Origin: Procambarus clarkii
Taxonomy: Eukaryota; Arthropoda; Malacostraca; Decapoda; Cambaridae
Direction: 5' to 3'
Assembly (NCBI RefSeq): GCF_040958095.1
Contig: NC_091160.1
Span: 41,623,678-41,687,677 of the forward strand
DNA length: 64,000 nucleotides
Made by a program: the position numbers and the translations under genes. The notes beneath the pieces were generated by a model. That model was not told where the DNA came from. It saw only the letters and a program-made list of their open reading frames with translations, and ran no database searches. This document shows, piece after piece, positions 2,913 to 34,325 of this stretch. The first letter of the stretch is position 1; every line of letters begins with the position of its first letter.

Positions 2913-2916
2913 AGAG

Positions 2917-6832: not shown

Positions 6833-8333
6833 CTGGCTGGCCCCTAGCAGCTCCTGGCTGGTCCTAGCAGCTCCTGGCTGGCGCTAGCAGCTCCTGGCTG
6901 GTCCTAGCAGCTTCTGGCTGGCGCTAGCAGCTCCTGGCTGGTCCTAGCAGCTTCTGGCTGGCCCTAGCAGCTCCTGGCTGGCCCTAGCAGCTCCTGGCTG
7001 GCCCTAGCAGCTCCTGGCTGGTCCTAGCAGCTTCTGGCTGGCCCTAGCAGCTCTTGGCTGGCCCTAGCAGCCCCTAGCAGCTCCTAGCAGCTCCTGGCTG
7101 GCCCTAGTAGCTCCTGGCTGGTCCTAGCAGCTCCTGGCTGGTCCTAGCAGCTCCTAGCAGCTCCTGGCTGGCCCTAGCAGCCCCTAGCAGCCCCTAGCAG
7201 CTCCTGGCTGGCCCTAGCAGCCCCTAGCAGCTCCTGGCTGGCCCTAGCAGCCCCTAGCAGCTCCTGGCTGGTCCTAGCAGCTCCAGGCTGGTCCTAGCAG
7301 CTCCTGGCTGGTCCTAGCAGCTCCTGGCTGGTCCTAGCAGCCCCCTAGCAGCTCCTGGCTGGTCCTAGCAGCTCCTGGCTGGTCCTAGCAGCTCCTGGCT
7401 GGTCCTAGCAGCCCCTAGCAGCTCCTGGCTGGCCCTAGCAGCCCCTAGCAGCTCCTGGCTGGTCCTAGCAGCTCCTGGCTGGTCCTAGCAGCTCCTGACT
7501 GGTCCTAGCAGCTCCTGGCTGGTCCTAGCAGCCCCTAGCAGCTCCTGGCTGGTCATAGCAGCTCCTGGCTGGTCCTAGCAGCTCCTGGCTGGCCCTAGCA
7601 GCTCCTGGCTGGCCCTAGCAGCTCCTGGCTGGTCCTAGCAGCTCCTGGCAGGCCCTAGCAGCTCCTGGCTGGCCCTAGCAGCTCCTGGCTGGCCCTAGCA
7701 GCTCTTGGCTGGCCCTAGCAGCTCCTGGCTGGCCCTAGCAGCTCCTGGCTGGCCCTAGCAGCCCCTAGCTGGCCCTAGCAGCTCCTGGCTGGTCCTAGCA
7801 GCTCCTGGCTGGCCCTAGCAGCTCCTGGCTGGCCCTAGCAGCTCCTGGCTGACCCTAGCAGCTCATGGCTGGTCCTAGCAGCTCCTGGCTGGTCCTAGCA
7901 GCTCCTGGCTGGTCCTAGCAGCTCCTGGCTGGCCCTAGCAGCTCCTGGCTGGTCCTAGCAGCTCCTGGCTGGCCCTAGCAGCTCCTGGCTCGCCCTAGCA
8001 GCTCCTGGCTGGCCCTAGCAGCTCCTGGCTGGCCCCTAGCAGCTCCTGGCTGGCCCTAGCAGCCCCTAGCAGCTCCTGGCTGGCCCCTAGCAGCTCCTGG
8101 CTGGCCCTAGCAGCCCCTAGCAGCTCCTGGCTGGCCCTAGCAGCTCCTGGCTGGCCCTAGCAGCCCCTAGCAGCTCCTGGCTGGCCCTAGCAGCTCCTGG
8201 CTGGCTCTAGCAGCTCCTGGCTGGCCCTAGCAGCTCCTGGCTGGCTCTAGCAGCTCCTGGCTGGTCCTAGCAGCTCCTGGCTGGCCCTAGCAGCTCCTGG
8301 CTGGTCCTAGCAGCTCCTGGCTGGCCCTAGCAA
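6833..8333. repeat. 20-bp minisatellite, about 75 copies
   Basis: The unit is CTAGCAGCTCCTGGCTGGTC with C/T variation at the penultimate base and frequent shortened units (CTAGCAGCCC). Copies follow each other without spacer for 1.5 kb. No long coding frame was seen. The truncated variants are scattered through the array rather than at one end, as expected of an array reshaped by unequal exchange or replication slippage. Confidence 0.97.
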
Positions 8334-8935
8334 TGGACCATCTTCACAAACACAACAAACTGTGGAGGTCATGAGAGTTTGTCTGTTGGGTGGGGTTCTG
8401 CAACCGGATTTCCACTGACATTCGTTCATTTCCATTTTTTTTCGCTCATATTTGCGCAACACGCTGACGACACGTCTCGATACTAAACAAAAAGAAAACG
8501 CTTTAAATATTCAGAAATACCCACAGGGTCTGTTCCCTTTAACGATCGTTCAATCAAATAAAAAAACAAGAATATTGGGGTGATGTTGTCCAGGCCGGGA
8601 CGTCGAAGCGTAGTGACACAAGGCGAATTATTCTGCAACTTTTCCTCGGGCGAGTCTCTTCCTCCCATGACGGAAGGGTTGCCAGATGCCGCCACGGTAT
8701 CCAGCAACATTCGCACGATTTCTTCAGCAAAATTTCCCTTTCTGCGGCGAGACTTGCGGTCGCCAGCCGCATGCGGGAGATGAGGAGACGCCCCTCTCCT
8801 CCTCCCCCCCTTGTGAGGGGTCCTGCCCCCCCCATGTGAGGGGGAAATGGGGGGAGAGAGGGAGTGGGATGGGTGTGGGAGAGAGAGGGGACCACGAGGC
8901 TGAGAGTCCGCCTGCCAGATGAATGATGGGTGTTG
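8334..8935. other. Low-copy, CpG-containing segment of unknown role
   Basis: After the minisatellite an AT-rich part (8334-8570) leads into a CpG-rich part (8580-8790), unlike its AT-rich or simple-repeat neighbours. On the minus strand there is a 72-codon frame ending near 8554, starting MRLATASLAAERE, that I do not recognise. It might be the 5' end of a gene or a diverged repeat. 8800-8890 is a G/C homopolymer-rich stretch. Confidence 0.3.
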
Positions 8936-9025
8936 TACTCACCTAGTTGTGTTTGCGGGGGTTGAGCTTTGGCTCTTTGGTCCCGCCTCTCAACCGTCAA
9001 TCAACTGGAGTACAGATTCCTGAGC

Positions 9026-9469
9026 CTATTGGGCTCTATCATATCTACACTTGAAACTGTGTATGGAGTCAGCCTCCACCACATCACTGCCTAATACATT
9101 CCATCTGTTAACTACTCTGACACTGAAAAAGTTCCTTCTAACGTCTCTGTGGCTCATGTGGGTACTCAGTTTCCACCTGTGTCCCCTTGTTCGCGTCCCA
9201 CCAGTGTTGAATAGTTTATCCTTGTTTACCCGGTCGATTCCCCTGAGGATTTTGTAGGTTGTGATCATGTCTTCCCTTACTCTTCTGTCTTCCAGTGTCG
9301 TAAGGTGCATTTCCCGCAGCCTTTCCTCATAACTCATGCCTCTTAGTTCTGGGACTAGTCTAGTGGCATACCTCTGAACTTTTTCCAGCTTCGTCTTGTG
9401 CTTGACAAGGTACGGGCTCCATGCTGGGGCCGCATACTCCAGGATTGGTCTTACATATGTGGTGTACAA
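9026..9469 (-). pseudogene. Family A LINE C-terminal domain
   Basis: The 147-codon frame begins MYTTYVRPILEYAAPAWSPY and contains KLEKVQRYATRLVPELRG, LTTLEDRRVREDMITTYKIL and FSVRVVNRWNVLGSDVVEAD. It corresponds to 5828-6267 of copy 1 but lacks its stops. Frame continuity with the RT is lost through the insertion at about 9636-9950. Confidence 0.85.
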
Positions 9470-9635
9470 GATTCTGAATGATTCCTTACACAGGTTCCTG
9501 AACGCTGTTCTAATGTTAGCCAGCCTCGCATATGCCGCTGACGTTATTCTCTTTATGTGGGCTTCAGGAGACAGGTTTGGTGTGATATCAACTCCTAGAT
9601 CTTTCTCTGTGTTTCGTGAAGGATTTCATCTTTTG

Positions 9636-9950
9636 ATTTGATTGTTGCCGCATGAGGGGGCTAGTTTATTGTGCACCCCATACTCATCCTGTGAGCGGTA
9701 GCGCAAAAGCATTACAGAGGGCACAAAAGGTCTTTATCAGACCTCATCTTAGATTATTACATAAACAATTTCTTCAATCCTTCACACCTTATAGATACAA
9801 TGTCAGCTAGTTACAGAGAAAGTGCTATTACAAGAGCTACATCTTTACAGTAAGTCATCATACATTAATGGTAGGTCTTGTCGCTAATACATAATAGTTT
9901 GGCCAATGGGGATATTACAGAGTCATAGGGGAGCTTCTGTTTATTATTAG
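9636..9950 (+). mobile_element. Unclassified short interspersed insertion in LINE A copy 2
   Basis: About 315 bp interrupt the LINE between the segments equivalent to PDTRW and DEILQ of copy 1. It begins near TTGCCGCATGAGGGGGCTAG and contains GAGCGGTAGCGCAAAAGC. There is no coding frame. The style is that of a SINE or a small non-autonomous element; I cannot assign a family, and the ends are uncertain by about 10 bp. Confidence 0.5.
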
Positions 9951-9961
9951 TCTTTGTCTGG

Positions 9962-10580
9962 TCATCTGTTTCCACTGCCTAGTTTCATTACCTTACATTT
10001 ACTCGGATTGAACTTTAGCTGCCATTTGTTGGAACTTTCCTTCAGTCTATCTAGGTCATCTTGTAGTCTCATACTATCTTTCTCAGTCTTAATCCTCCTC
10101 ATAATTTTTGCATCATCGGCAAACATTGAGAGGAACGAGTCTATTCCCTCTGGGAGATCATTTACATATATCAGAAACAGTATCGGTCCAAGGACTGACC
10201 CCTGCGGTACTCCACTCGTAACGTCTCGCCAGTCTGAGACCTCACCCCTCACACTGACTCGTTGTCTCCTGTTGCTTAGGTACTCCTGTATCCAACGGAG
10301 TACCTTCCCTTTCACTCCAGCCTGCATCTCCAGCATTTTCACTAGCCTCTTGTGTGGTACTGTATCAAAGACTTTCTGATAATCCAAAAATATGCTGTCT
10401 GCCCACCCTTCTCTTTCTTGCCTTATTTTTGTTGCCTGGTCGTAGAAGTCAAGTAATCCTGTGAGGCAGGACCTGCCATCCCTAAACACATGTTGATGCT
10501 GTGTTACAAAGTTCTTTCGCTCCAGGTGTTCCACTAGCTTTCTTCGCACAATCTTCTCTATCACTGTTGTTTTCCTCCTA
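9962..10580 (-). pseudogene. Family A LINE reverse transcriptase (internally deleted)
   Basis: Minus-strand motifs in order: [75 protein letters not shown] and FNPSKCKVMKLGSG. The RT fingers are missing, because the sequence jumps from IRRKTTV straight to EKIVRRK. Unlike copy 1, the frame runs intact from FADD into the thumb, showing where the frameshift of copy 1 lies. Confidence 0.88.
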
Positions 10581-12710: not shown

Positions 12711-12732
12711 GTGGGGACTACCAGGCCACAAC

Positions 12733-13596
12733 ACCACCGTAGGGGGGGGGGAACACCACCGTAGGGGGGGGGAACACCACCGTAGGGGGGGGGGAACACC
12801 ACCGTGGGGGGGGGGAACACCACCGTGGGGGGGGGGGGGAACACCACCGTGGGGGGGGGGGGAACACCACCGTGGGGGGGGGGGGAACACCACCGTGGGG
12901 GGGGGAACACCACCGTGGGGGGGGGAACACCACCGTGGGGGGAGGGAACACCACCGTGGGGGGAGGGAACACCACCGTGGGGGGGGGGAACACCACCGTG
13001 GGGGGGGAACACCACCGTGGGGGGGGGGGAACACCACCGTGGGGGGGAACACCACCGTGGGGGGGGAACACCACCGTGGGGGGGGGAACACCACCGTGGG
13101 GGGGGAACACCACCGTGGGGGGGGGGAACACCACCGTGGGGGGGGGGAACACCACCGTGGGGGGGAACACCACCGTGGGGGGGGAACACCACCGTAGGGG
13201 GGGGGAACACCACCGTGGGGGGGGGAACACCACCGTGGGGGGGGGGGAACACCACCGTGGGGGGGGGGGGAACACCACCGTGGGGGGGGGAACACCACCG
13301 TGGGGGGGGGGGGGAACACCACCGTGGGGGGGGGAACACCACCGTGGGGGGGGAACACCACCGTGGGGGGAGGGAACACCACCGTGGGGGGGGGAACACC
13401 ACCGTGGGGGGGAAACACCACCGTGGGGGGGAAACACCACCGTGGGGGGGAAACACCACCGTGGGGGGGGAAACACCACCGTGGGGGGGGGAACACCACC
13501 GTGGGGGGGAACACCACCGTGGGGGGGGGGAAACACCACCGTGGGGGAGGAACACCACCGTGGGGGGGGGAACACCACCGTGGGGGGGGGAACACC
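12733..13596 (+). repeat. G-rich minisatellite, left part (about 43 units)
   Basis: The unit is AACACCACCGTG followed by 6 to 12 G. First units have CCGTAGGGG instead of CCGTGGGG. The G-run length varies from copy to copy, which opens overlapping frames on both strands; those are not genes. The G runs could form quadruplexes. The array is in the same orientation as 26391-27592, and the two are halves of one array split by the fold-back element. The last 6 bases AACACC (13591-13596) are one side of its target duplication. Confidence 0.97.
13591..13596. other. Target site duplication, left (AACACC)
   Basis: AACACC directly precedes the terminal AGTAGT. With the identical right copy at 26391-26396 it forms a 6-bp direct repeat; deleting element plus one copy gives GGG-AACACC-ACCGTGGGG, a normal unit of the array. 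Confidence 0.85.
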
Positions 13597-13609
13597 AGTA
13601 GTGGGATTG

Positions 13610-13960
13610 ATGCCATAGAGCGTCCGTTTTGTTTTTTTCCAGGGACGCTCTATGGCATGATGCCATAGAGCGTCCGTTTTAGTTTTTTCCAGGGACGCTC
13701 TACGTCGCAGCCCCATAGAGCGTCCGTTTTGTTTTTTTCCAGGGACGCTCTACGTCGCAGGGTTATTTTCAACTTTTAGACTGGTCGTTTTGTTTTTTTT
13801 TCCGGGGCCTGTCTACGCACCCCTAGTTTCACGAACTTGAAGTACAACATAGACCGTGCGTTTTTCTTTTTTCCGGGCACGGTTTACGCACCCTGGGTTG
13901 TCTCAATTCAACATGCCTAGGGATTAAAAAGACGGTCCCTGGCATCCCCAAATTTCGTTG
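13610..13960 (+). repeat. Terminal hairpin cluster, left
   Basis: At least six stem-loops in a row. The first has a perfect 16-bp stem (13610-13625 with 13643-13658) around a T-rich loop. The second and third keep a 10-bp stem TAGAGCGTCC/GGACGCTCTA. The fourth (about 13777-13813) has stem TAGACTGGTC with GGCCTGTCTA, and the fifth (about 13851-13890) TAGACCGTGC with GCACGGTTTA. The loops stay GTTTT(G/C/A)TTTTTTCC while stems differ yet pair. A sixth (about 13910-13955) pairs ATGCCTAGGGA with TCCCTGGCAT around GATTAAAAAG. Several modules end TACG(TC)GCACCC or similar. Confidence 0.85.
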
Positions 13961-14374
13961 GCTCAGTGACCCTGCACAGACATTGCTAATGGTCAATGAC
14001 GTCACCAGCTAGCCGCTCAGGGTTCCTGCACCGGCATGTTCGAGGGGATTAAAAAGCCGGTCTATGAGTCGTGTGTTTTGCGATACAACAGTGTCCTTGA
14101 AACCTAATGTAAAATACCATCATCCCTAGTCTATTTTTAATTTCATATTTACTTCCAACCATCGCCCATTACATTTATCAAAGGGGATCATGTATGTGAG
14201 GGAAGAACATAACTTCAGCACTGCAAGAAGTTATGTGTGTATTTTCAAGTTCGTCCCCTCCTGCCTGTATTTACCCAGGTCTTTTTTCCTAAATATATAA
14301 CTTATCCAATTCATTCCTATTCTGTTTCACGTTGATACGTTTAATAGGTTATTAATATTCCCCTTTACTATGAC

Positions 14375-14480
14375 CATTCAGTCACACCTCTATCATGTCA
14401 CCCCTATTTCTTCTTCGTCGTCGTTCTAGAGAATGTAATTTGAGCTTTGACAATCTTTCTTGAAGGATCGTTTATTATGC
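14375..14480 (-). pseudogene. LINE C-terminal remnant inside left arm
   Basis: On the minus strand the translation includes LQERLSKLKLHSLERRRRRN and RGDMIEV, matching the ERL..L.L.SLE.RR.RGDMI pattern of LINE C-termini (compare EERLRELNLTSLEDRRVRRDMI at 5950-6040). It is too short to be functional. Because it is mirrored in the right arm (25507-25612), it was in place before the arm was duplicated, or was copied by gene conversion. Confidence 0.6.
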
Positions 14481-14891
14481 ATAGGGCAAAAAATAATATG
14501 AAAAACTGCTATCAGTCGTTTATATTAAAAAATAGAGGCCTGGGCATTGGTGATTTCAATGCGTTTTCAGTAGTAACCAATATTGTCCTTAACCTCATAC
14601 ACGTCTCACATTCGCTCAAAACATACCTCCCACACCTTGCTGTGGCATATAACAAATAAAAAAATCTCATTCAGTAAAAGCAAGCCTCTCATATTTTAAA
14701 ATAAGGCCTTCTGCGGCGCAAGGCGCGCTAAATGCGGATCCCAGGAGGTTCACACATAAGTGTGAACTCTTAATCTGGCTTAATACCTCACCTATACTCT
14801 GTGCTTCATCAAAGTTTATATTCAGCTACAATAGCTCGTATTTTCTCTCGTTGCTTATATTTTCTGTTATTCATAAACCCGATCAAACCTT

Positions 14892-14911
14892 CCTAACCTA
14901 ACCTAACCTAA
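14892..14911 (+). repeat. Telomere-like (CCTAA)4 in left arm
   Basis: Four CCTAA repeats, the complement of the arthropod TTAGG telomere unit, mirrored at 25076-25095. The dispersed CCTAACCT motif is also frequent at 17600-19900. Confidence 0.8.
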
Positions 14912-15859
14912 CATATTATTTATAACAAACAAATACATTCTACAGACCAGTTATTGTTGTTTTTTAGTGACATCATGAAAAGCGAACTCAGGTATAGGGA
15001 TAAGGTATTGCTGGCCATTAGCATATAGGTGTGAAGGTATTACAGTACCTTACTGGTCAACTATGTATGACGTCACCAGACAACCAATGCGACCTTTGGC
15101 GTCCTACTGGCATGAGTATTTGATGTTATTAATCAAAAATGACTAGACTATCCATCCCCACCTAACCTAATCAGAGGTATAAGAATATACATTTTAGTCA
15201 TCCACAACTGTAATCATTATTCAGTGATAAGTTCAAAAGTATAACAGAAGCCCAAATGTCATACTGCAATTTAAGCAGAATCGTACATCTGGCAGCATAG
15301 CAGGTGAGCTGAACATAAGAATAAAGGTAACTGCAGAGGTCCTATTGGCCCATACGAGGCAGCTCCTATATATTTCCACCCAATCTCATTCATGTCCACC
15401 CTATGCTTAAAACAACCAAGGGATCCCACTTAAAGTATTAGTTTACAATAATAGTTTTATTAAATAGCTCTTATTCTAGTTTTATACACAACAGCAATTA
15501 TGAAACCCTATAGCTAGATATTCTGCTATAATCCACAAGTAGTTACCACACATCTGGCAGTACAGCGGATTAGTGGCTGTGTTCATAGGCTAGTCAACTG
15601 TCCTCACAACCATCAAATAGATATCCAAATGTCGCACCTCAATTCATCCATCTAGCAACTCAGCTGGATGCTAGCCACTATATTCATAGGCTAATCATTT
15701 CTACACCTCAAAAAATCCTAGTCTTGCTACGCAAATCAGGTGACTTGTTTCCAAACCAACAGTCGCAAATACAAGCATACATACCTACTCATACTCCACA
15801 ACCTATACATTCATAGAGAATAGCCTAGTTTTTTGCCACCATTAATCAGATGCTATTTA

Positions 15860-17000
15860 TGCCATGCACACAGAAAATACAGCATCTACACACCAAATAT
15901 GCCATTTATGCACAAAATATATTATTTACACTCAAATATGCCATCACACAAAATATGTCATTTATAGACAAAAATATAACATTTACATACAAAAAATATG
16001 TCAGTTGGACATGAAAATGTAGCATTTACACAATATTGCATAGACACTCAGAGTATGACATTTACACAAAGTATGGTATTTTGCACAAATATATCAAAAT
16101 GCTTATGCATTTAGACAATCAAAAAAAAAATGCGCTTTCACTAAAATTACACAATTTCACAAACATAATTTTCACAAAATACCCACACATTGTCTCAAAC
16201 CAAAATACACTTACACCATGAAGATCTATTTTATCAGATTACAGAGCTTACACAAAATACACAATTTTCACACACAAATACAGTTGCACCAGTTCCACTT
16301 CGACAAATTAAAAACACAACTTGCATAAATGTACTATTATCACAAAAATTATTATAAAACATAGACAATTATTACACAGTTTGTGTAATTATTTTACATC
16401 TTTGCACAATTAATACAAGAAAACTTGCTATATAATTACTCAACTTGCACAATGACAATCAATACACAAAGGTATAAATAAACAATTCGTCCATATGCAA
16501 TTACACAACATGCGCAATTAATACACAACTTATACAAATATTACACATCTTTCATAATTATTACACAACTTGCACAAATGCATATCTAGCACAAATACGT
16601 ACAATACATAACTACCCCAAATATGAAAATACACAACTAGCATAAATACACGATTTACACAAATACAATTGCGGCATTTACACAACTTGCTCAAAAATAT
16701 AATCAATACACAACTTACCAAAATATGAACAATACATAACTAGCACATATTCATTAAATACACAACTAAGCAATTTCCGCAAATACACATACAAAAACAT
16801 ATACAATTAATACATACAACTTGCACAAAACAATACACAATTTATAGAAATATAATCAATACATAATTGCAATAATCATACAACTTATGCAAAATACATA
16901 ATCTGCACAATTAATACACAAGTATATTAATTGTACTATATATGTACAAACACAACCAACTAGGTCAAACAATACACAATTTGCATGATATTTTTCTGGG
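15860..17000 (+). repeat. Degenerate short repeats (ACACAA / AAATATG type), left arm
   Basis: Dozens of variants of TTTACACAAAATATG and ACACAACTTGCACAAA follow each other at roughly 20-30 bp spacing, with strong strand asymmetry (A/C-rich on plus). The mirror is at 22987-24127. No coding capacity is evident; the short frames here are chance. Confidence 0.7.
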
Positions 17001-17599
17001 TATATTTAGGACATTAATTATAATATGCTGAGTTTAACCAACTCCCCAAAAGTCAGAATTTCACATATAAAAATGGTGCATATGACTTCCGATGAGCTCA
17101 ATATATAACACATTATTTTTCCATTAAGATATCAACATTATTAGTGCTAAACTATTCATCTAACATATGTCCACTGTTTTTATGTCTTATTAATACCTTC
17201 CTTGTTACATCCTCTCCAATCAGACCACCCATATTTATGTATTTATTCAAACCATCTAACAGACTTATTTGTTCTAGCCTTAGTTATGTTAGGGCAGGTG
17301 GGGTTAGGTGAAGTCAGTATTTTCTATGATAATTTTAGACACATTTGCTATATCTTATCAAAATGCATCTTGTTAAAACTCAAATTCATCTAAATCTATA
17401 AAAAATATACTTATACTACGCAAATTTGACTAAATTCAACCTAGCTAAACTAACTAAATATGAGCATCCCATATCCTCACATACAAGCCTATGTCGCCTC
17501 TGTCCATACATTATATGAGTCTGCCATATAGCTCGAACCCCAAATAGGAAAATTTACACTATTTCATAAACATGCTAGTTCATTACCCTAAGATATTAT

Positions 17600-19095
17600 A
17601 TATGTCCTTCCCTACACGACCTCACCTAACCTGACCTGGCATAATCAAACCTAGATTTAGTTCAAGTTGGTGAAATTTAAGCTATGCCACTTTAATTCGA
17701 CATAATTTATGGCAATTTCCACCAAATATACCCAAATGTTGCGTAGCATAGCACTGCCAAAGCCCATTTTCTCCTATTCCATACTACCCTACACAACCTC
17801 ACCTAACCTGACCTAGCATATCCAAACCTGGATTTGGTTAAAGTTGGCGAAATTTATGCTATGCCACCTAAATATGACCAAATTTAAGGCAATTTCCACC
17901 AAATATACCCAAATGTTGTGTATCATAGCATCACCAAAGCCCATTTTTACCTACATTTTCTCCTATTCCATCCTACCCTACACAACCTCACCTAGCCTAT
18001 CCTAGCATATCCAAACCTGGATTTGGTTAAAGTCTGCGAAATTTAAGCTATCCCACATATATTCGACCTAATTTAAGGCAATTCCCACCAAATATCCCCA
18101 AATGTTGCGTATCACAGCACTGCCAAAGCCCATTTTTACCTACATTTTTCTCCTATTCCATCCTACCCTATGCAACCTTACCTAACCTATCCTACCATAT
18201 CCAAACCTAGATTTGGTTAAAGTCTGCAAAATTTAAGCTATCCCACCTAAATTCTATCTAATTTAAGGAAATTCCCACCAAATATATCCAAATGTTCTGT
18301 ATCACAGCACAGCCAAAGCCCATTTTTACCTACATTTTCTCCTATTCCATCCTACCCTACGCTACCTTACCTAACCTATCCTAGCATATCCAAACCTAGA
18401 TTTGGTTAAAGTCGGCGAAATTTAAGTTATCCCATATAAATTTGACCTAATTTAAGACAATTTCCACCAAATATACCCAAAAATGTTTTGGAACATAGCA
18501 CGGCCAAAGCTCATTTTAGCTGAGTTTTTGCCTATTCCAATCTGCCCTAGACAACCCTACCCAGCCTCACCTGGCATATCCAAAGTCAGGTTTGATTATA
18601 GTTGGCCAAATTTATGCCTTTCCAACCTAAATTTTACCTAATTTAAGCCAATTTCCACCGAATATACCCAAATATTTTGTATCTTAGCATGGTCAAAGTT
18701 TATTTCACCCAAGTTTTTCACCTATTCCATCTTACCTTACACAGCCTTACCTAACCTGACCTAGCATATCCCAAGCTAGATTTGATTAGAGTTCGTGAAA
18801 TTTAAGCTTACTCACCTAAATTCAACCTAATTTAAGACAATTTCTACCCAAAATGATTTGTTACATAGCTCAGCCAAAGACCATTTTACCCGAGTTTTCA
18901 CATATTCCAACCAACCCTACATAGCCTTACCTATCCCTGACCTAGCAGATTTGATTAAAGTTGGGGAAATTTAAGCTATCGCCATCAAATTGGAGACAAT
19001 TTCCACCAAATATGCCTAAATGTTGTGTATCATAGCACAGCCAAAACCCATTTTACCCACATTTTCATCCATTCCATCTAAACCTGGACCTAGCC
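17600..19095 (+). repeat. 180-190 bp satellite, about 8 units, left arm
   Basis: Each unit carries, in order, CCTACACAACCTCACCTAACC, a segment around GGATTTGGTTAAAGT, AAATTTAAGCTATCCCACC, GGCAATTTCCACCAAATAT and AAAGCCCATTTTTACC. Unit starts fall near 17608, 17790, 17970, 18160, 18355, 18548, 18733 and 18910. Units differ from each other far more than the two arms differ, so the satellite predates the arm duplication. Confidence 0.88.
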
Positions 19096-19395
19096 TCTGA
19101 TACTACATATACTCAGAGAAGTGATGTTTGTTGGATATGAACCTAAATGCCGGTGCCTAACCTGCAAGAGTCTTGGAGCTTTGTTGAATATTTTATCTAT
19201 TTTTCTTCAAAAACTGAAGTTTTGGATATGAACCTATCCGCACTGTGCCTAACCTGCTAGGTTCTTTGTTGAACATTGTAACCATATTCATAGAAAAGTG
19301 ATGTTTTGGATATGGACCTAACAGCCCCTCTCCTTTAAAACTTGGAACTGTGTTCAATATTGTAGATAGTGTTGGGTATGTGTTTTATTTTTACA

Positions 19396-19680
19396 CATCA
19401 ACCCAACCGTCCTGGACCTAACCTCCCTTCACCTAACTTCAAATTTATCGTAAATATGGAAGGACGTGTTGTTTGTGCAACAACCCAACCGTCCTTGACC
19501 TAACCTCCATTTATCAAACTTCAAATTTATCATAAATGTGGGAGGACCGTGTTATTTGTGCATCAACCCAGCCGTCCTGGGCCTAACCTCCCTTTATCTA
19601 ACTTCAAATTTATTGTATTTATGGGAAGAAGGTGTTGTTTATGCATCAACCCAACCGCCCTGGACCTAACCTCTGATACA
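19396..19680 (+). repeat. 83-bp tandem repeat, left arm
   Basis: About 3.4 units of 83 bp, each starting CATCAACCCAACCGTCCTGG, followed by CCTAACCTCC and AACTTCAAATTTAT. The mirror is at 20307-20591. The 77-codon frame read across it is a repeat artefact. Confidence 0.85.
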
Positions 19681-19960
19681 CGAATCTTTGTTCAATATTG
19701 CATCATACTCGTAGCATATTTTTTTTCACATAATTCATCCATCCTCAACCTAACCTCTATTACCTGGGGGGAGGGAGGTTAATGGAAAATATGATAATAA
19801 TGGGAATTTTCTCTACATCAGTTCAACTTAACCATCCTTAACCTAACCTTAGTTAGAAAGGGATATAACTCACCAAAACTATTTAATTACCATTTACCCA
19901 ATTTTCCTTATCCTAACCTATAACTAGAGGGTTTAGACCCCCCTTTACCTCGAAATTATA

Positions 19961-20026
19961 CTATATATTTAAGGTAGGAATATATTTTCACATATAAACC
20001 TAACATTCCCTAATTTAACCCTATAC
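19961..20026. other. 66-bp centre of the fold-back element
   Basis: This AT-rich spacer is the only part without a partner in the opposite arm. It holds a single CCTAACATTCCCTAATTTAACC stretch related to the dispersed motif. It would form the loop if the arms paired. Confidence 0.85.
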
Positions 20027-20306
20027 TATAATTTCGAGGTAAAGGGGGGTCTAAACCCTTTAGTTATAGGTTAGGATAAGGAAAATTGGGTAAATGGTAA
20101 TTAAATAGTTTTGGTGAGTTATATCCCTTTCTAACTAAGGTTAGGTTAAGGATGGTTAAGTTGAACTGATGTAGAGAAAATTCCCATTATTATCATATTT
20201 TCCATTAACCTCCCTCCCCCCAGGTAATAGAGGTTAGGTTGAGGATGGTTGAATTATGTGAAAAAAAATATGCTACGAGTATGATGCAATGTTGAACCAA
20301 GATTCG

Positions 20307-20591
20307 TGTATCAGAGGTTAGGTCCAGGAAGGTTGGGTTGATGCATAAACAACACCTTCTTCCCATAAATACAATAAATTTGAAGTTAGATAAAGGGAGG
20401 TTAGGCCCAGGACGGCTGGGTTGATGCACAAATAACACGGTCCTCCCACATTTATGATAAATTTGAAGTTTGATAAATGGAGGTTAGGTCAAGGACGGTT
20501 GGGTTGTTGCACAAACAACACGTCCTTCCATATTTACGATAAATTTGAAGTTAGGTGAAGGGAGGTTAGGTCCAGGACGGTTGGGTTGATG
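20307..20591 (-). repeat. 83-bp tandem repeat, right arm
   Basis: Mirror of 19396-19680. Compared with it, one unit differs (CCTTCCTGG against CCGCCCTGG), one of the few arm-specific changes I noticed. Confidence 0.85.
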
Positions 20592-20891
20592 TGTAAAAAT
20601 AAAACACATACCCAACACTATCTACAATATTGAACACAGTTCCAAGTTTTAAAGGAGAGGGGCTGTTAGGTCCATATCCAAAACATCACTTTTCTATGAA
20701 TATGGTTACAATGTTCAACAAAGAACCTAGCAGGTTAGGCACAGTGCGGATAGGTTCATATCCAAAACTTCAGTTTTTGAAGAAAAATAGATAAAATATT
20801 CAACAAAGCTCCAAGACTCTTGCAGGTTAGGCACCGGCATTTAGGTTCATATCCAACAAACATCACTTCTCTGAGTATATGTAGTATCAGA

Positions 20892-22387
20892 GGCTAGGTC
20901 CAGGTTTAGATGGAATGGATGAAAATGTGGGTAAAATGGGTTTTGGCTGTGCTATGATACACAACATTTAGGCATATTTGGTGGAAATTGTCTCCAATTT
21001 GATGGCGATAGCTTAAATTTCCCCAACTTTAATCAAATCTGCTAGGTCAGGGATAGGTAAGGCTATGTAGGGTTGGTTGGAATATGTGAAAACTCGGGTA
21101 AAATGGTCTTTGGCTGAGCTATGTAACAAATCATTTTGGGTAGAAATTGTCTTAAATTAGGTTGAATTTAGGTGAGTAAGCTTAAATTTCACGAACTCTA
21201 ATCAAATCTAGCTTGGGATATGCTAGGTCAGGTTAGGTAAGGCTGTGTAAGGTAAGATGGAATAGGTGAAAAACTTGGGTGAAATAAACTTTGACCATGC
21301 TAAGATACAAAATATTTGGGTATATTCGGTGGAAATTGGCTTAAATTAGGTAAAATTTAGGTTGGAAAGGCATAAATTTGGCCAACTATAATCAAACCTG
21401 ACTTTGGATATGCCAGGTGAGGCTGGGTAGGGTTGTCTAGGGCAGATTGGAATAGGCAAAAACTCAGCTAAAATGAGCTTTGGCCGTGCTATGTTCCAAA
21501 ACATTTTTGGGTATATTTGGTGGAAATTGTCTTAAATTAGGTCAAATTTATATGGGATAACTTAAATTTCGCCGACTTTAACCAAATCTAGGTTTGGATA
21601 TGCTAGGATAGGTTAGGTAAGGTAGCGTAGGGTAGGATGGAATAGGAGAAAATGTAGGTAAAAATGGGCTTTGGCTGTGCTGTGATACAGAACATTTGGA
21701 TATATTTGGTGGGAATTTCCTTAAATTAGATAGAATTTAGGTGGGATAGCTTAAATTTTGCAGACTTTAACCAAATCCAGGTTTGGATATGGTAGGATAG
21801 GTTAGGTAAGGTTGCATAGGGTAGGATGGAATAGGAGAAAAATGTAGGTAAAAATGGGCTTTGGCAGTGCTGTGATACGCAACATTTGGGGATATTTGGT
21901 GGGAATTGCCTTAAATTAGGTCGAATATATGTGGGATAGCTTAAATTTCGCAGACTTTAACCAAATCCAGGTTTGGATATGCTAGGATAGGCTAGGTGAG
22001 GTTGTGTAGGGTAGGATGGAATAGGAGAAAATGTAGGTAAAAATGGGCTTTGGTGATGCTATGATACACAACATTTGGGTATATTTGGTGGAAATTGCCT
22101 TAAATTTGGTCATATTTAGGTGGCATAGCATAAATTTCGCCAACTTTAACCAAATCCAGGTTTGGATATGCTAGGTCAGGTTAGGTGAGGTTGTGTAGGG
22201 TAGTATGGAATAGGAGAAAATGGGCTTTGGCAGTGCTATGCTACGCAACATTTGGGTATATTTGGTGGAAATTGCCATAAATTATGTCGAATTAAAGTGG
22301 CATAGCTTAAATTTCACCAACTTGAACTAAATCTAGGTTTGATTATGCCAGGTCAGGTTAGGTGAGGTCGTGTAGGGAAGGACATAT
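20892..22387 (-). repeat. 180-190 bp satellite, right arm
   Basis: Mirror of 17600-19095 with the same unit order and the same unit-specific variants. Confidence 0.88.
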
Positions 22388-22986
22388 ATAATATCTTAGG
22401 GTAATGAACTAGCATGTTTATGAAATAGTGTAAATTTTCCTATTTGGGGTTCGAGCTATATGGCAGACTCATATAATGTATGGACAGAGGCGACATAGGC
22501 TTGTATGTGAGGATATGGGATGCTCATATTTAGTTAGTTTAGCTAGGTTGAATTTAGTCAAATTTGCGTAGTATAAGTATATTTTTTATAGATTTAGATG
22601 AATTTGAGTTTTAACAAGATGCATTTTGATAAGATATAGCAAATGTGTCTAAAATTATCATAGAAAATACTGACTTCACCTAACCCCACCTGCCCTAACA
22701 TAACTAAGGCTAGAACAAATAAGTCTGTTAGATGGTTTGAATAAATACATAAATATGGGTGGTCTGATTGGAGAGGATGTAACAAGGAAGGTATTAATAA
22801 GACATAAAAACAGTGGACATATGTTAGATGAATAGTTTAGCACTAATAATGTTGATATCTTAATGGAAAAAGAATGTGTTATATATTGAGCTCATCGGAA
22901 GTCATATGCACCATTTTTATATGTGAAATTCTGACTTTTGGGGAGTTGGTTAAACTCAGCATATTATAATTAATGTCCTAAATATA

Positions 22987-24127
22987 CCCAGAAAAATATC
23001 ATGCAAATTGTGTATTGTTTGACCTAGTTGGTTGTGTTTGTACATATATAGTACAATTAATATACTTGTGTATTAATTGTGCAGATTATGTATTTTGCAT
23101 AAGTTGTATGATTATTGCAATTATGTATTGATTATATTTCTATAAATTGTGTATTGTTTTGTGCAAGTTGTATGTATTAATTGTATATGTTTTTGTATGT
23201 GTATTTGCGGAAATTGCTTAGTTGTGTATTTAATGAATATGTGCTAGTTATGTATTGTTCATATTTTGGTAAGTTGTGTATTGATTATATTTTTGAGCTA
23301 GTTGTGTAAATGCCGCAATTGTATTTGTGTAAATCGTGTATTTATGCTAGTTGTGTATTTTCATATTTGGGGTAGTTATGTATTGTACGTATTTGTGCTA
23401 GATATGCATTTGTGCAAGTTGTGTAATAATTATGAAAGATGTGTAATATTTGTATAAGTTGTGTATTAATTGCGCATGTTGTGTAATTGCATATGGACGA
23501 ATTGTTTATTTATACCTTTGTGTATTGATTGTCATTGTGCAAGTTGAGTAATTATATAGCAAGTTTTCTTGTATTAATTGTGCAAAGATGTAAAATAATT
23601 ACACAAACTGTGTAATAATTGTCTATGTTTTATAATAATTTTTGTGATAATAGTACATTTATGCAAGTTGTGTTTTTAATTTGTCGAAGTGGAACTGGTG
23701 CAACTGTATTTGTGTGTGAAAATTGTGTATTTTGTGTAAGCTCTGTAATCTGATAAAATAGATCTTCATGGTGTAAGTGTATTTTGGTTTGAGACAATGT
23801 GTGGGTATTTTGTGAAAATTATGTTTGTGAAATTGTGTAATTTTAGTGAAAGCGCATTTTTTTTTTGATTGTCTAAATGCATAAGCATTTTGATATATTT
23901 GTGCAAAATACCATACTTTGTGTAAATGTCATACTCTGAGTGTCTATGCAATATTGTGTAAATGCTACATTTTCATGTCCAACTGACATATTTTTTGTAT
24001 GTAAATGTTATATTTTTGTCTATAAATGACATATTTTGTGTGATGGCATATTTGAGTGTAAATAATATATTTTGTGCATAAATGGCATATTTGGTGTGTA
24101 GATGCTGTATTTTCTGTGTGCATGGCA
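22987..24127 (-). repeat. Degenerate short repeats, right arm
   Basis: Mirror of 15860-17000, here T/G-rich on the plus strand (TTGTGTATT, GCAAGTTGTG). Confidence 0.7.
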
Positions 24128-25075
24128 TAAATAGCATCTGATTAATGGTGGCAAAAAACTAGGCTATTCTCTATGAATGTATAGGTTGTGGAGTATGAGT
24201 AGGTATGTATGCTTGTATTTGCGACTGTTGGTTTGGAAACAAGTCACCTGATTTGCGTAGCAAGACTAGGATTTTTTGAGGTGTAGAAATGATTAGCCTA
24301 TGAATATAGTGGCTAGCATCCAGCTGAGTTGCTAGATGGATGAATTGAGGTGCGACATTTGGATATCTATTTGATGGTTGTGAGGACAGTTGACTAGCCT
24401 ATGAACACAGCCACTAATCCGCTGTACTGCCAGATGTGTGGTAACTACTTGTGGATTATAGCAGAATATCTAGCTATAGGGTTTCATAATTGCTGTTGTG
24501 TATAAAACTAGAATAAGAGCTATTTAATAAAACTATTATTGTAAACTAATACTTTAAGTGGGATCCCTTGGTTGTTTTAAGCATAGGGTGGACATGAATG
24601 AGATTGGGTGGAAATATATAGGAGCTGCCTCGTATGGGCCAATAGGACCTCTGCAGTTACCTTTATTCTTATGTTCAGCTCACCTGCTATGCTGCCAGAT
24701 GTACGATTCTGCTTAAATTGCAGTATGACATTTGGGCTTCTGTTATACTTTTGAACTTATCACTGAATAATGATTACAGTTGTGGATGACTAAAATGTAT
24801 ATTCTTATACCTCTGATTAGGTTAGGTGGGGATGGATAGTCTAGTCATTTTTGATTAATAACATCAAATACTCATGCCAGTAGGACGCCAAAGGTCGCAT
24901 TGGTTGTCTGGTGACGTCATACATAGTTGACCAGTAAGGTACTGTAATACCTTCACACCTATATGCTAATGGCCAGCAATACCTTATCCCTATACCTGAG
25001 TTCGCTTTTCATGATGTCACTAAAAAACAACAATAACTGGTCTGTAGAATGTATTTGTTTGTTATAAATAATATG

Positions 25076-25095
25076 TTAGGTTAGGTTAGGTTAGG
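25076..25095 (-). repeat. Telomere-like (TTAGG)4 in right arm
   Basis: Four TTAGG units on the plus strand, pairing with 14892-14911. Confidence 0.8.
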
Positions 25096-25506
25096 AAGGT
25101 TTGATCGGGTTTATGAATAACAGAAAATATAAGCAACGAGAGAAAATACGAGCTATTGTAGCTGAATATAAACTTTGATGAAGCACAGAGTATAGGTGAG
25201 GTATTAAGCCAGATTAAGAGTTCACACTTATGTGTGAACCTCCTGGGATCCGCATTTAGCGCGCCTTGCGCCGCAGAAGGCCTTATTTTAAAATATGAGA
25301 GGCTTGCTTTTACTGAATGAGATTTTTTTATTTGTTATATGCCACAGCAAGGTGTGGGAGGTATGTTTTGAGCGAATGTGAGACGTGTATGAGGTTAAGG
25401 ACAATATTGGTTACTACTGAAAACGCATTGAAATCACCAATGCCCAGGCCTCTATTTTTTAATATAAACGACTGATAGCAGTTTTTCATATTATTTTTTG
25501 CCCTAT

Positions 25507-25612
25507 GCATAATAAACGATCCTTCAAGAAAGATTGTCAAAGCTCAAATTACATTCTCTAGAACGACGACGAAGAAGAAATAGGGGTGACATGATAGAGG
25601 TGTGACTGAATG
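25507..25612 (+). pseudogene. LINE C-terminal remnant inside right arm
   Basis: Mirror copy of 14375-14480, here coding on the plus strand with LERRRRRNRGDMIEV before a stop. Confidence 0.6.
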
Positions 25613-26026
25613 GTCATAGTAAAGGGGAATATTAATAACCTATTAAACGTATCAACGTGAAACAGAATAGGAATGAATTGGATAAGTTATATATTTAGGA
25701 AAAAAGACCTGGGTAAATACAGGCAGGAGGGGACGAACTTGAAAATACACACATAACTTCTTGCAGTGCTGAAGTTATGTTCTTCCCTCACATACATGAT
25801 CCCCTTTGATAAATGTAATGGGCGATGGTTGGAAGTAAATATGAAATTAAAAATAGACTAGGGATGATGGTATTTTACATTAGGTTTCAAGGACACTGTT
25901 GTATCGCAAAACACACGACTCATAGACCGGCTTTTTAATCCCCTCGAACATGCCGGTGCAGGAACCCTGAGCGGCTAGCTGGTGACGTCATTGACCATTA
26001 GCAATGTCTGTGCAGGGTCACTGAGC

Positions 26027-26377
26027 CAACGAAATTTGGGGATGCCAGGGACCGTCTTTTTAATCCCTAGGCATGTTGAATTGAGACAACCCAGGGTGCG
26101 TAAACCGTGCCCGGAAAAAAGAAAAACGCACGGTCTATGTTGTACTTCAAGTTCGTGAAACTAGGGGTGCGTAGACAGGCCCCGGAAAAAAAAACAAAAC
26201 GACCAGTCTAAAAGTTGAAAATAACCCTGCGACGTAGAGCGTCCCTGGAAAAAAACAAAACGGACGCTCTATGGGGCTGCGACGTAGAGCGTCCCTGGAA
26301 AAAACTAAAACGGACGCTCTATGGCATCATGCCATAGAGCGTCCCTGGAAAAAAACAAAACGGACGCTCTATGGCAT
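26027..26377 (-). repeat. Terminal hairpin cluster, right
   Basis: Mirror of 13610-13960, ending in the stem GGACGCTCTATGGCAT next to the terminal sequence ATCAATCCCACTACT. All stem variants of the left cluster are present in reverse order. Confidence 0.85.
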
Positions 26378-26390
26378 CAATCCCACTACT

Positions 26391-27592
26391 AACACCACCG
26401 TGGGGGGAGGGAACACCACCGTGGGGGGAGGGAACACCACCGTGGTGGGGGGGAACACCACCGTGGGGGGGGAAACACCACCGTGGGGGGGGGGGAAACA
26501 CCACCGTGGGGGGGGGGGGAAACACCACCGTGGGGGGGGGGGGAACACCACCGTGGGGGGAAACACCACCGTGGGGGGGGGAACACCACCGTGGGGGGGA
26601 AACACCACCGTGGGGGGGGGGAAACACCACCGTGGGGGGGGGGGGGAACACCACCGTGGGGGGGGGGGGAAACACCACCGTGGGGGGGGGAACACCACCG
26701 TGGGGGGGGGAACACCACCGTGGGGGGGGGGGAACACCACCGTGGGGGGGGAACACCACCGTGGGGGGGGGGGGAACACCACCGTGGGGGGGGGGGGAAC
26801 ACCACCGTGGGGGGGGGGGGAAACACCACCGTGGGGGGGGAACACCACTGTGGGGGGGAACACCACCGTGGGGGGGAACACCACCGTGGGGGGGGGGAAC
26901 ACCACCGTGGGGGGGAGGAACACCACCGTGGGGGGGGGGGGAACACCACCGTGGGGGGGGGAGGAACACCACCGTGGGGGGGGGGGAACACCACCGTGGG
27001 GGGGGGAACACCACCGTGGGGGGGGGAACACCACCGTGGGGGGGGGGGGGGAACACCACCGTGGGGGGGAGGAACACCACCGTGGGGGGGAACACCACCG
27101 TGGGGGGGGGGGAACACCACCGTGGGGGGGAACACCACCGTGGGGGGGAACACCACCGTGGGGGGGGGGAACACCACCGTGGGGGGGGGGGAACACCACC
27201 GTGGGGGGGGAACACCACCGTGGGGGGGGAACACCACCGTGGGGGGGGGAACACCACCGTGGGGGGGGGAACACCACCGTGGGGGGGGAACACCGTGGGG
27301 GGGGGAACACCACCGTGGGGGGGGAACACCACCGTGGGGGGGGGGGGGAACACCACCGTGGGGGGGAGGAACACCACCGTGGGGGGGGAACACCACCGTG
27401 GGGGGAGGAACACCACCGTGGGGGGGGAACACCACCGTGGGGGGGGAACACCACCGTGGGGGGGGGAACACCACCGTGGGGGGGGGGGAACACCACCGTG
27501 GGGGGGGGGGAACACCACCGTGGGGGGGGGGAACACCACCGTGGGGGGGGGGAACACCACCGTGGGGGGGGGAACACCACCGTGGGGGGGGG
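26391..27592 (+). repeat. G-rich minisatellite, right part (about 60 units)
   Basis: Same unit and same orientation as 12733-13596. Starts with the second AACACC of the target duplication (26391-26396). One unit lacks CACC (AACACCGTGG near 27289) and one has CCACTG. The long overlapping frames on both strands are by-products of a repeat without stop codons. Confidence 0.97.
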
Positions 27593-28124
27593 GACACCTC
27601 CCACCACGCCACATACGCCCCTCTTCCCCGCACCCGCCGCTGATGACGTCACCGTCTCAAGGCTATTAAATACCCGGCAGCTGGATGACCGCTCCCGATA
27701 TTTACTTAAATCTTTATTTAACGAATCAAAACAATAACAAAACAAACAAGACAAACAAACCAACGATTCGCCAATCTGATTACTAAATGCTTCCAATCAC
27801 AATAATAAAATTAAATGGGTTTTATTATGAAATAAGTAAATTGGGTTTAGCATCAGGTGTTGGCATCAGCGTCTGTCTGTCTCTCGCAGCCTCCAGTGCT
27901 GCCAAGTTGTCAGCTGTGATCAACCAGATTGTTGTTGTTGGTGTATGGATGCATTATGGGGGGGTTTGGGGGGGTGGGGAGCTTACTAGGGGCACCTGGG
28001 GGCCGCTTGTATGGCGGTGGTGGTGGGCTAATGGTGGTTGGGTCATTAGTAAGGGGGTTATGTCTGTTGAAGGGATTGGGGGGGAGGGGGTTGTGTGGGG
28101 GTAGGGGGGGTAGGGTAGGGCGTG
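27593..28124. other. Unassigned flank of minisatellite
   Basis: Contains TGATGACGTCACC (a CRE-like palindrome, near 27642) followed by a TATTAAATA stretch near 27663, then AT-rich and finally G-rich simple sequence (27950-28125). A promoter of an LTR or other element is conceivable, but nothing else supports it. Confidence 0.3.
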
Positions 28125-28444: not shown

Positions 28445-29016
28445 TAGACAGAGGACAAGGAGCTGGGGTATGAAGACAAGGAGCTGGGATATGAGGACAA
28501 GGAGCTGGGGTATGAGGACAAGGAGCTGGGGTATGAGGACAAGGAGCTGGGACATGAGGACAAGGAGCTGGGACATGAGGATAAGGAGCTGGGATATGAG
28601 GACAAGGAGCTGGGATATGAGGACAAGGAGCTGGGATATGAGAACAAGGAGCAGGGATATGAGGACAAGGAGCTGGGATATGAGGACCAGGAGCTGGGAT
28701 ATGAAGACCAGGAGCTGGGATATGAGGACAAGGAGCTGGGATATGAGGACATGGAGCTGGGATATGAGGACAAGGAGCTGGGATATGAGGACAAGGAGCT
28801 GGGATATGAGGACAAGGAGCTGGGATATGAGGACAAGGAGCTGGGATATGAGGACAAGGAGCTGGGATATGAGGACAAGGAGCTGGGATATGAGGACAAG
28901 GAGCTGGGATATGAGGACAAGGAGCTGGGATATGAGGACAAGGAGCTGGGATATGAGGACAAGGAGCTGGGATATGAGGACAAGGAGCTGGGATATGAGG
29001 ACAAGGAGCTGGGATA
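28445..29016 (+). repeat. 21-bp minisatellite, truncated by an assembly gap
   Basis: About 27 copies of a 21-bp unit with core GGACAAGGAGCTGGGATAT. As 21 is a multiple of three, each frame stays open (for example EDKELGY repeated), but there is no other sign of a gene. Early copies vary more than late ones, which become identical just before the gap. Confidence 0.95.
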
Positions 29017-29516
29017 NNNNNNNNNNNNNNNNNNNNNNNNNNNNNNNNNNNNNNNNNNNNNNNNNNNNNNNNNNNNNNNNNNNNNNNNNNNNNNNNNNNN
29101 NNNNNNNNNNNNNNNNNNNNNNNNNNNNNNNNNNNNNNNNNNNNNNNNNNNNNNNNNNNNNNNNNNNNNNNNNNNNNNNNNNNNNNNNNNNNNNNNNNNN
29201 NNNNNNNNNNNNNNNNNNNNNNNNNNNNNNNNNNNNNNNNNNNNNNNNNNNNNNNNNNNNNNNNNNNNNNNNNNNNNNNNNNNNNNNNNNNNNNNNNNNN
29301 NNNNNNNNNNNNNNNNNNNNNNNNNNNNNNNNNNNNNNNNNNNNNNNNNNNNNNNNNNNNNNNNNNNNNNNNNNNNNNNNNNNNNNNNNNNNNNNNNNNN
29401 NNNNNNNNNNNNNNNNNNNNNNNNNNNNNNNNNNNNNNNNNNNNNNNNNNNNNNNNNNNNNNNNNNNNNNNNNNNNNNNNNNNNNNNNNNNNNNNNNNNN
29501 NNNNNNNNNNNNNNNN
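29017..29516. other. Assembly gap of 500 N
   Basis: Exactly 500 N, a conventional placeholder for a gap of unknown size. It lies where the minisatellite becomes homogeneous, so the array is probably longer than shown. Confidence 0.98.
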
Positions 29517-32844: not shown

Positions 32845-34325
32845 GGCTAGGGAGAAAGAGAGAGGGGAGAGAGAGAGAGATAGTGAGCGAGAGAGAGATA
32901 GTGAGCGAGAGATAGTGAGCGAGAGAGAGATAGTGAGCGAGAGAGAGATAGTGAGCGAGAGAGAGATAGTGAGCGAGAGAGAGATAGTGAGCGAGAGAGA
33001 GATAGTGAGCGAGAGAGAGATAGTGAGCGAGAGAGAGATAGTGAGCGAGAGAGAGATAGTGAGCGAGAGAGAGAGATAGTGAGCGAGAGAGAGAGATAGT
33101 GAGCGAGAGAGAGAGATAGTGAGCGAGAGAGAGAGATAGTGAGCGAGAGAGAGAGATAGTGAGCGAGAGAGAGAGAGTGAGCGAGAGAGAGAGTGAGCGA
33201 GAGAGAGAGAGAGTGAGCGAGAGAGAGAGTGAGCGAGAGAGAGAGTGAGCGAGAGAGAGAGTGAGCGAGAGAGAGAGAGAGTGAGCGAGAGAGAGAGAGA
33301 GTGAGCGAGAGAGAGAGAGAGTGAGCGAGAGAGAGAGAGAGTGAGCGAGAGAGAGAGAGAGTGAGCGAGAGAGAGTGAGCGAGAGAGAGAGAGAGTGAGC
33401 GAGAGAGAGAGAGTGAGAGAGAGAGTGAGCGAGAGAGAGAGAGAGAGTGAGCGAGAGAGAAGAGAGAGAGAGAGAGAGAGTGAGCGAGAGAGAGAGTGAG
33501 CGAGCGAGAGAGAGAGTGAGCGAGAGAGAGAGAGAGTGAGCGAGAGAGAGATAGTGAGCGAGAGAGAGATAGTGAGATAGAGAGAGATAGTGAGCGAGAG
33601 AGAGATAGTGAGCGAGCGAGAGATAGTGAGCGAGTGAGAGAGAGAGAGTGCAAACGAGGGAGTGAGAGATAGTGAGTGAGAGATAGTGAGCGAGAGATAG
33701 TGAGCGAGAGAGAGAGAGATAGCGAGGGAGTGAGAGATAGTGAGAGAGAGATAGTGAGCGAGTGAGAGATAGTGAGTGATAGTGAGCGAGTGAGAGATAG
33801 AGCAAACGAGGGAGTGAGAGATAGCGAGCGAGAGGGAGTGAGAGATAGAGATAATGAGCGAGAGAGAGATAGTGAGCGAGCGAGAGATAGTGAGAGAGAG
33901 ATAGTGAGCGAGTGAGAGATAGTGAGTGATAGTGAGCGAGTGAGAGATAGAGCAAACGAGGGAGTGAGAGATAGCGAGCGAGAGGGAGTGAGAGATAGAG
34001 ATAATGAGCGAGAGAGAGATAGTGAGCGAGCGAGAGATAGTGAGAGAGAGATAGTGAGCGAGTGAGAGATAGTGAGTGATAGTGAGCGAGTGAGAGATAG
34101 AGCAAACGAGGGAGTGAGAGATAGCGAGCGAGAGGGAGTGAAAGATAGTGAGCGAGAGATCGTGAGTGAGTGAGAGAGAGATAGCGAGGGAGTGAGAGAT
34201 AGTAAGTGAGCGAGCGAGAGAGTGAGAGATAGTGAGCGAGCGAGGGAGTGAGTGAGAGATAGTAAGCGAGAAAGCGAGGGATAGTGTGCGAGCGAGTGAG
34301 ATAGCAAGTGAGCGAGTGAGTTATC
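32845..34325 (+). repeat. Polypurine minisatellite (GTGAGCGAGAGA type)
   Basis: Almost every base on the plus strand is G or A, apart from the T in GATAGTGAGC and occasional C in GAGCGAG. The units are GAGAGATAGTGAGC (left) and longer composite units around 33650-34140, where about 140 bp with GAGCAAACGAGGGAGTGAGA is repeated three times. Long frames in Leu/Ser on the minus strand are artefacts. Polypurine tracts of this length can form triplex DNA. It lies about 300 bp before the first coding exon. Confidence 0.95.

Follow-up and report, generated by a model that had tools for sequence, protein, structure and literature searches.

What is the 12.8-kb sequence that interrupts a minisatellite in a 64,000-nt stretch of the Procambarus clarkii genome (contig NC_091160.1), and how have its two arms remained almost identical? 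The element, a gene-free palindrome, lies at positions 13597 to 26390 of this stretch (hereafter the window, to whose positions the coordinates of the element refer). Based on comparisons within the same genome, we consider it likely that the element represents the insertion of a Polinton genome that was both defective and palindromic, and which would have been born by snap-back, spread in trans, and had its arms matched through a hairpin stage. Palindromes of this kind were probably moved by gene-bearing Polintons of the same genome.

A gene-free palindrome and its relatives

The arms of the element (13597-19960 and 20027-26390) are 6,364 bp each, differ by nine mismatches, and enclose a 66-bp spacer; a separate inverted-repeat search of the window returned 6,382-nt arms that are 30 nt apart. 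The tips are AGTAGTGGG and CCCACTACT, and AACACC stands on both sides. The first-pass annotation had reported two 6,364-bp arms, a 66-bp centre, coordinates summing to 39987 (13597 + 26390), these termini, and the AACACC direct repeat, all of which were borne out, as was its statement that the element has no genes. No open reading frame of at least 100 amino acids (aa) was found between 13,717 and 26,270, and the longest stop-to-stop frame fully within the left arm has 92 aa. Besides, tblastn searches with the eight proteins of a gene-bearing relative on contig C75, described below, gave a best E value of 0.32 in the window, located in a flank, and no significant match in ten related palindromes. 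Scanning the window for Rfam families and tRNAs gave nothing informative, and a scan of viral contigs for the element tip gave 0 matches.

We searched the genome assembly (4.03 Gb, 2,308 contigs, referred to here by C-numbers) with the first 304 bp of the element and with its tip pattern. There were 33 exact tip ends genome-wide, whereas the reversed pattern gave 0 matches. Five ends lacked a partner (one on C12, two each on C19 and C30), and 15 copies were two-ended: the window element, C57, C5, C23, C25, C31, C41, C48, C32, C9, C56, C26, C69, C11:26.44 Mb, and C75. A perfect 6-bp duplication flanks all 15, at 14 independent sites, C5 and C23 being one insertion seen twice (their flanks are reverse-complementary). 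In C48 (GTGGTG) and C26 (TGTGTG), which lie in simple repeats, the 6-bp match could arise by chance. AGTAGT begins 15/15 left ends and ACTACT closes 14/15 right ends (ACTACC in C69); the right tips of C9 and C69 each deviate at one base. Ten gene-free copies, nine of them independent, were read end to end, and all are palindromes; C26, C69, and C11 were read at their ends only. Copies with the same ends and 6-bp flanks, which the first-pass annotation had proposed to look for, do exist, so that its refuting condition of no second copy did not arise; they form a family sharing what appears to be one founding junction. The duplicated locus itself (C5:8913339-8926773 and C23:38281072-38294507) reflects either a segmental duplication, recent and in inverted orientation, or a haplotype placed wrongly in the assembly.

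Mavericks have (AGT)2//(ACT)2 or (AG)3//(CT)3 ends and 6-bp duplications, according to PMC8097293, and Polintons carry PolB plus integrase, according to PMC6431247. A gene-bearing Polinton with the same terminal sequence, as predicted in the first-pass annotation, is present as C75:14480804-14496417. This 15.6-kb element has the tips of the palindromes, terminal inverted repeats (TIRs) of 2,134 bp at 99.2% identity, and genes for PolB (PF03175, 3.5e-16), an integrase with rve (PF00665, 3.8e-9) and chromodomain (PF00385, 1e-5) regions, and an A32-type ATPase (PF04665, 2.3e-6). Pfam and PHROGs gave no name to its five other frames. Judged from motifs and gene order, a 199-aa frame may encode an adenovirus-type protease and a 479-aa frame could be a capsid protein. 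A further candidate helper, C12:36.59 Mb, has an integrase and, on the right, the tip of the window element; no left tip was found when looked for.

Arms, junction, and ends

The proposed course of events is as follows. While a Polinton was being copied from its protein primer, one strand would have taken in about 1.7 kb from the PolB side, entered other DNA for about 4.7 kb, snapped back, and been copied; the resulting duplex would carry one working end twice, at either terminus. The tip would then be present on both sides, presumably together with the origin and with any packaging signal. Gene-bearing Polintons would replicate this palindrome in trans with terminal protein and PolB, and would insert it by their chromodomain integrase. 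In each cycle the displaced single strand would fold into one long hairpin, in which arm differences become mismatches and are erased; after insertion the arms would diverge again. Exchange with different helpers would replace the ends and retain the core. A packaging size limit may also operate, as 12 two-ended copies span 9.5-14.8 kb, below the 15.6 kb of C75.

Within elements the arms are 98.0-99.9% identical, and identity between elements is clearly lower. The differences per column, with columns aligned to the window arm only and C23 excluded as a duplicate of C5, are 9/6364 in the window, 30/4738 in C57, 5/5270 in C5, 98/4948 in C25, 5/2242 in C31, 3/3735 in C41, 7/5968 in C48, 4/6148 in C32, and 5/3275 in C9. 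Across the 36 pairs of these nine independent palindromes (pairs that are not themselves independent), we counted 5,498 concerted site-pairs, in which both arms agree inside each element and the elements are fixed differently, versus 3 site-pairs with a shared arm polymorphism. Thus, the arms were matched before or at insertion, or were kept matched afterwards.

The latter option is the main rival to the hairpin: Polinton enzymes would have moved the palindromes, and chromosomal gene conversion between the arms would have preserved their identity after insertion. Such conversion occurs in large palindromes, for example on the Y chromosome, and the high identity within elements and clearly lower identity between them would fit it. 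We nevertheless regard it as rather unlikely, since one-sided changes persist in several copies (lopsided centres and the lopsided end of C9), since C56 matches in its left arm and centre and the pieces sampled from its right half read as reverse-transcriptase-like, and since six of the nine arm differences in the window element are confined to the final 304 bp of an arm; none of these observations is decisive.

Over its first 1,701 bp, each arm matches the right, PolB-side end of C75, and about 100 bp of this match lie outside the C75 TIR and are missing from the other end of C75. The features are arranged as follows.

13597..26390, no strand: whole palindromic element, 12,794 bp (inverted-repeat comparison)
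13591..13596, +: target-site duplication AACACC, left copy (flank comparison)
26391..26396, +: target-site duplication AACACC, right copy (flank comparison)
13613..13760, +: left subterminal region, 50-bp hairpin repeats
26227..26376, -: right subterminal region, 50-bp hairpin repeats
13597..15297, +: 1,701 bp of Polinton end in the left arm (TIR and flank from the PolB side)
24690..26390, -: right arm, Polinton-derived end, mirror image of the left
15198..15297, +: about 100 bp present only on the C75 PolB side, outside the C75 TIR, left arm (boundary computed from the C75 TIR limits)
24690..24789, -: about 100 bp present only on the C75 PolB side, right arm
15298..19960, +: left-arm inner segment, no C75 match
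20027..24689, -: right-arm inner segment, mirror image of the left-arm inner segment
19961..20026, no strand: 66-bp asymmetric spacer (loop), matched in 9/10 palindromes, not in C31
12730..13596 (12730-13597 by TRF), +: host minisatellite, 20-bp unit AACACCACCGTGGGGGGGGG, left of the insertion (tandem-repeat scan)
26391..27598, +: host minisatellite, 20-bp unit, right of the insertion, orientation as on the left (tandem-repeat scan)

The PolB-side-only flank stands on both arms in 10/10 palindromes, and the matches end at an identical base. Two copies with another tip, on contigs C26 and C58, carry the same junction, which gives 12/12 aligned copies; the near flanks of these two are identical, so that they are perhaps one insertion. 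At the junction site, the gene-bearing C70 continues along C75 without a break. The inner 4.7 kb or so of each arm, which includes tandem repeats of about 189/379 bp at 17605-19078 in the left arm, has no counterpart in C75. Only the first 120 bp or so past the junction resemble a repeat nested in another Polinton end, which occurs twice in the C70 end and once in the C12 flank; the remaining 4.5 kb or so had no match in C75, the rest of the window, or the other non-palindrome pieces compared. The first-pass annotation had taken the element for a non-autonomous Polinton derivative made purely of inverted repeat. This is supported, with the correction that the arms are more than Polinton TIR: each joins 1.7 kb of Polinton end to about 4.7 kb with no match in C75.

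Of the central 400 bp, 131-400 bp were recovered in each of the 10 palindromes. With one shared junction and a shared centre-proximal sequence, the simplest reading is one founding palindrome, built like an adenovirus symmetric recombinant. The two relatives with the other tip, AGTAGTGGAAATGACTCC, lie at C26:35289380 and C58:20711751.

The ends of the palindromes track those of candidate helpers. TIR identity to C75 over 1.69 kb is 98.8% for C48 and 98.3% for C31, and C25 matches the C12 TIR at 96.2% over 746 bp; the window element stands at about 92% to either (best piece to C75, 91.8%). A second tip class comprised 89 ends (at most 2 mismatches; control, 0), which formed 24 inward pairs of less than 40 kb, seven of them enclosing an integrase match. 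Ten pairs, none with an integrase match, were picked for follow-up, and five were sampled (12.3-13.7 kb, having been selected at 12-14 kb). Their left pieces match the window core in all five (85-99%) and their right pieces in four (92-97%); in 3/5 the two pieces pair directly with each other. Furthermore, two other second-tip pairs on C3 enclose inward palindrome-type junctions. The core has thus been combined with different ends.

Repeated birth, in which each palindrome arises anew from a gene-bearing Polinton by fold-back, would account for arm identity within elements and for tips that resemble different helpers. It has very little chance of being correct, and we rejected it, given the identical junction in 12/12 aligned copies, the centre-proximal sequence common to 10/10, and a core that occurs under two tip classes.

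Insertion sites and copy numbers

AACACC is also contained in the 20-bp unit AACACCACCGTGGGGGGGGG of the minisatellite around the window element, so that in this copy alone the 6-bp repeat would be weak evidence; the duplication is settled because the other copies show 6-bp duplications. Removal in silico of the element and one 6-bp copy restores a continuous minisatellite array. We rebuilt the empty site for the copies that share the tip class of the window element and lack known genes, and it falls within a tandem array in 12/13, the exception being C31, at 20 bp from an array; the array units at the 12 sites all differ. For background we took 32 random 250-bp pieces (one all N, one about half N), of which 9 had their midpoint in an array (Fisher p=1e-4 versus 12/13, with the all-N piece counted as a miss). 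The bias toward arrays is real for this sample, and it is moderate in size because the genome is rich in arrays. We dropped the idea that such targeting is peculiar to the palindromes, as the gene-bearing copies C70 (both sides) and C38 (left side) are in arrays too. The chromodomain of the integrase would be a plausible guide to such targets. Elsewhere in the window, arrays occupy 6813-8332, 28451-29016, and 32867-34304, and a 500-N gap at 29017-29516, right after a 21-bp tandem array, points to a collapsed or unresolved repeat. Nested inverted repeats at 2051-4215 (331 bp, 99%), 5034-6366 (682 bp, 84%), and 8927-10564 (479 bp, 78%) are possibly remnants of other fold-back elements.

The interrupted array also bears on whether the palindrome is a read or contig folded back during assembly or library preparation. 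Fold-back chimeras are a known artefact, and at the related locus C26:35289380 a 2-kb piece is interrupted by an 828-N gap right behind the centre sequence. An inverted read would mirror the flanks, whereas the minisatellite runs in the same orientation on both sides, with the 6-bp duplication. The duplications in 15/15 copies at 14 independent sites and the element-specific arm sequences likewise speak against an artefact, which is therefore highly improbable; we rejected it on the array and the duplications.

We estimated abundance with a 29-mer across the palindrome junction and a 32-mer for the gene-type sequence at the same site (at most 2 mismatches each). The junction occurs 1,042 times in the genome (529 on the plus and 513 on the minus strand; reversed control, 0). 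Among the first 100 junctions listed, all exact and on C1-C8, 74 form 37 inward-facing pairs with a median spacing of 9,271 bp (9,387 in the window), and 4 further close neighbours are not inward pairs. If the remaining junctions behave alike, there would be about 385 two-armed copies. The gene-type sequence occurs 53 times. Of 5,715 first-look integrase candidates, 116 were listed, and the 91 at 88% identity or more were used for proximity counts. Within 20 kb of one of these lie 35/53 gene-type sites (34 on the same strand) versus 0/63 palindrome junctions, the latter drawn from the first 100 listed, with one pair entered twice, on contigs that hold 11 of the 91 matches. The gene-type probe misses many helpers and the integrase count covers only the matches listed; helpers are thus undercounted and any ratio is rough. 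An inward gene-type pair on C22 (21606903 and 21611676, 4.8 kb apart) has no listed integrase match nearby. The 25 matches excluded from the proximity counts, at 66-68% identity, form a second Polinton integrase lineage, and their open frames and near-equal scores suggest that it was recently active.

Several points weigh against a hairpin-maintained, helper-borne palindrome. We infer replication, packaging, and mobility, none of which was observed, and chromosomal gene conversion could also keep the arms alike. The arms differ at 98/4948 columns in C25 and at 30/4738 in C57, the centres of C57, C5/C23, C25, C31, and C41 are lopsided, and so is the right end of C9. In C56, the left arm through the centre matches and two pieces beyond hold frames that we judged by eye to be reverse-transcriptase-like; this copy spans 37.4 kb, and a C3 second-tip pair enclosing palindrome junctions spans 17.0 kb, both longer than C75, so that a size limit would not be strict. 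Neither C75 nor the rest of the window nor the other non-palindrome pieces compared yielded a source for the 4.7 kb, and no C75 capsid gene was named by Pfam, PHROGs, or PDB. On C50, an integrase stands between two copies of the PolB-side site (23277601 and 23290329); in some helpers this flank may therefore lie within the TIR, and the one-sided source rests on C75. The gene-type site is near only 34/91 of the integrase matches listed, and it is possible, not firm, that palindromes outnumber their helpers. Finally, no array was seen at C75, on the right of C12, or on the left of the two C19 ends, which share one flank.

Comparison with known systems and significance

Like Polintons/Mavericks, the window element has 6-bp duplications, AGTAGT...ACTACT ends of the (AGT)2//(ACT)2 form, and a TIR shared with an element that carries PolB, an rve-chromodomain integrase, and an A32-like ATPase. 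Unlike them, the palindromes lack the autonomous set of PolB, integrase, ATPase, protease, and capsid genes; they consist of two full-length arms rather than TIRs around genes, with about 4.7 kb per arm not in C75. The closest analogues are the symmetric recombinants of adenoviruses (SYREC of Ad12) and self-complementary defective adenovirus genomes, palindromic, with one viral terminus at both ends; in SYREC-like recombinants the joined DNA is of host origin, whereas in the segment joined here only the first 120 bp or so resemble repeats, those of the C70 end and the C12 flank. Here too, the PolB-side end stands on both arms in 10/10 palindromes and is followed by a segment not in C75; one viral terminus present twice plus other DNA, a protein-primed parent, and a size near that of the parent are common to both. 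Unlike SYREC, the palindromes are chromosomally integrated, have target-site duplications, and occur in many copies.

Fold-back, Galileo, and miniature inverted-repeat transposable elements (MITEs) likewise have long inverted repeats, no genes, and a presumed dependence on enzymes in trans, whereas the palindromes differ from them in 6-bp duplications, Polinton ends, a size of 9.5-14.8 kb, and a single founding Polinton-end junction. Galileo/P fold-backs make a 7-8 bp duplication and have P-type transposase kin; the palindromes have 6-bp duplications and rve-integrase kin, and no search aimed at a P-type transposase was made. MITEs are short (less than about 1 kb) internal-deletion derivatives, whereas the window element is 12,794 bp and its inner arm segment was not found in C75. 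Membership in a different fold-back superfamily (Galileo/P, Mutator-like, or Dada), of which the long inverted repeats with subterminal repeats are reminiscent, is a negligible prospect and was rejected on the 6-bp duplications, the AGTAGT ends, and the relative with PolB, integrase, and the same ends.

Virophages and mavirus, including the endogenous mavirus-like elements (EMALEs), share related rve-integrase machinery, the logic of a parasite of a virus, and sites near repeats; unlike the palindromes, EMALEs carry genes. PMC8547959 places 18/29 EMALE sites near repetitive host DNA and gives mostly 3-5 bp duplications, without evidence that integration is sequence-specific. According to PMC8097293, no viral particles of Mavericks had been observed, nor had an extracellular form of Polintons been detected according to PMC7805220. 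In the literature on Polintons, palindromes, and target sites, of which coverage was partial, we found no description of a palindromic Polinton derivative.

A bolder reading, which we hold only tentatively, is that an animal polintovirus has its own line of defective-interfering satellites: a palindromic genome that arose a single time, present in hundreds of chromosomal copies, swapping ends between helpers, hairpin-maintained, particle-sized, and possibly restraining its helper. If true, the crayfish would harbor an element, represented by hundreds of junction copies, that parasitizes a virus-like transposon and offers a natural test bed for helper interference. Arms that were matched during spread would be a fossil record of the copying of the element, and their concerted state would point to a single-strand hairpin stage. 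Furthermore, giant palindromes are unstable in most genomes, and a palindrome family that often sits in minisatellites is a resource for the study of palindrome stability.

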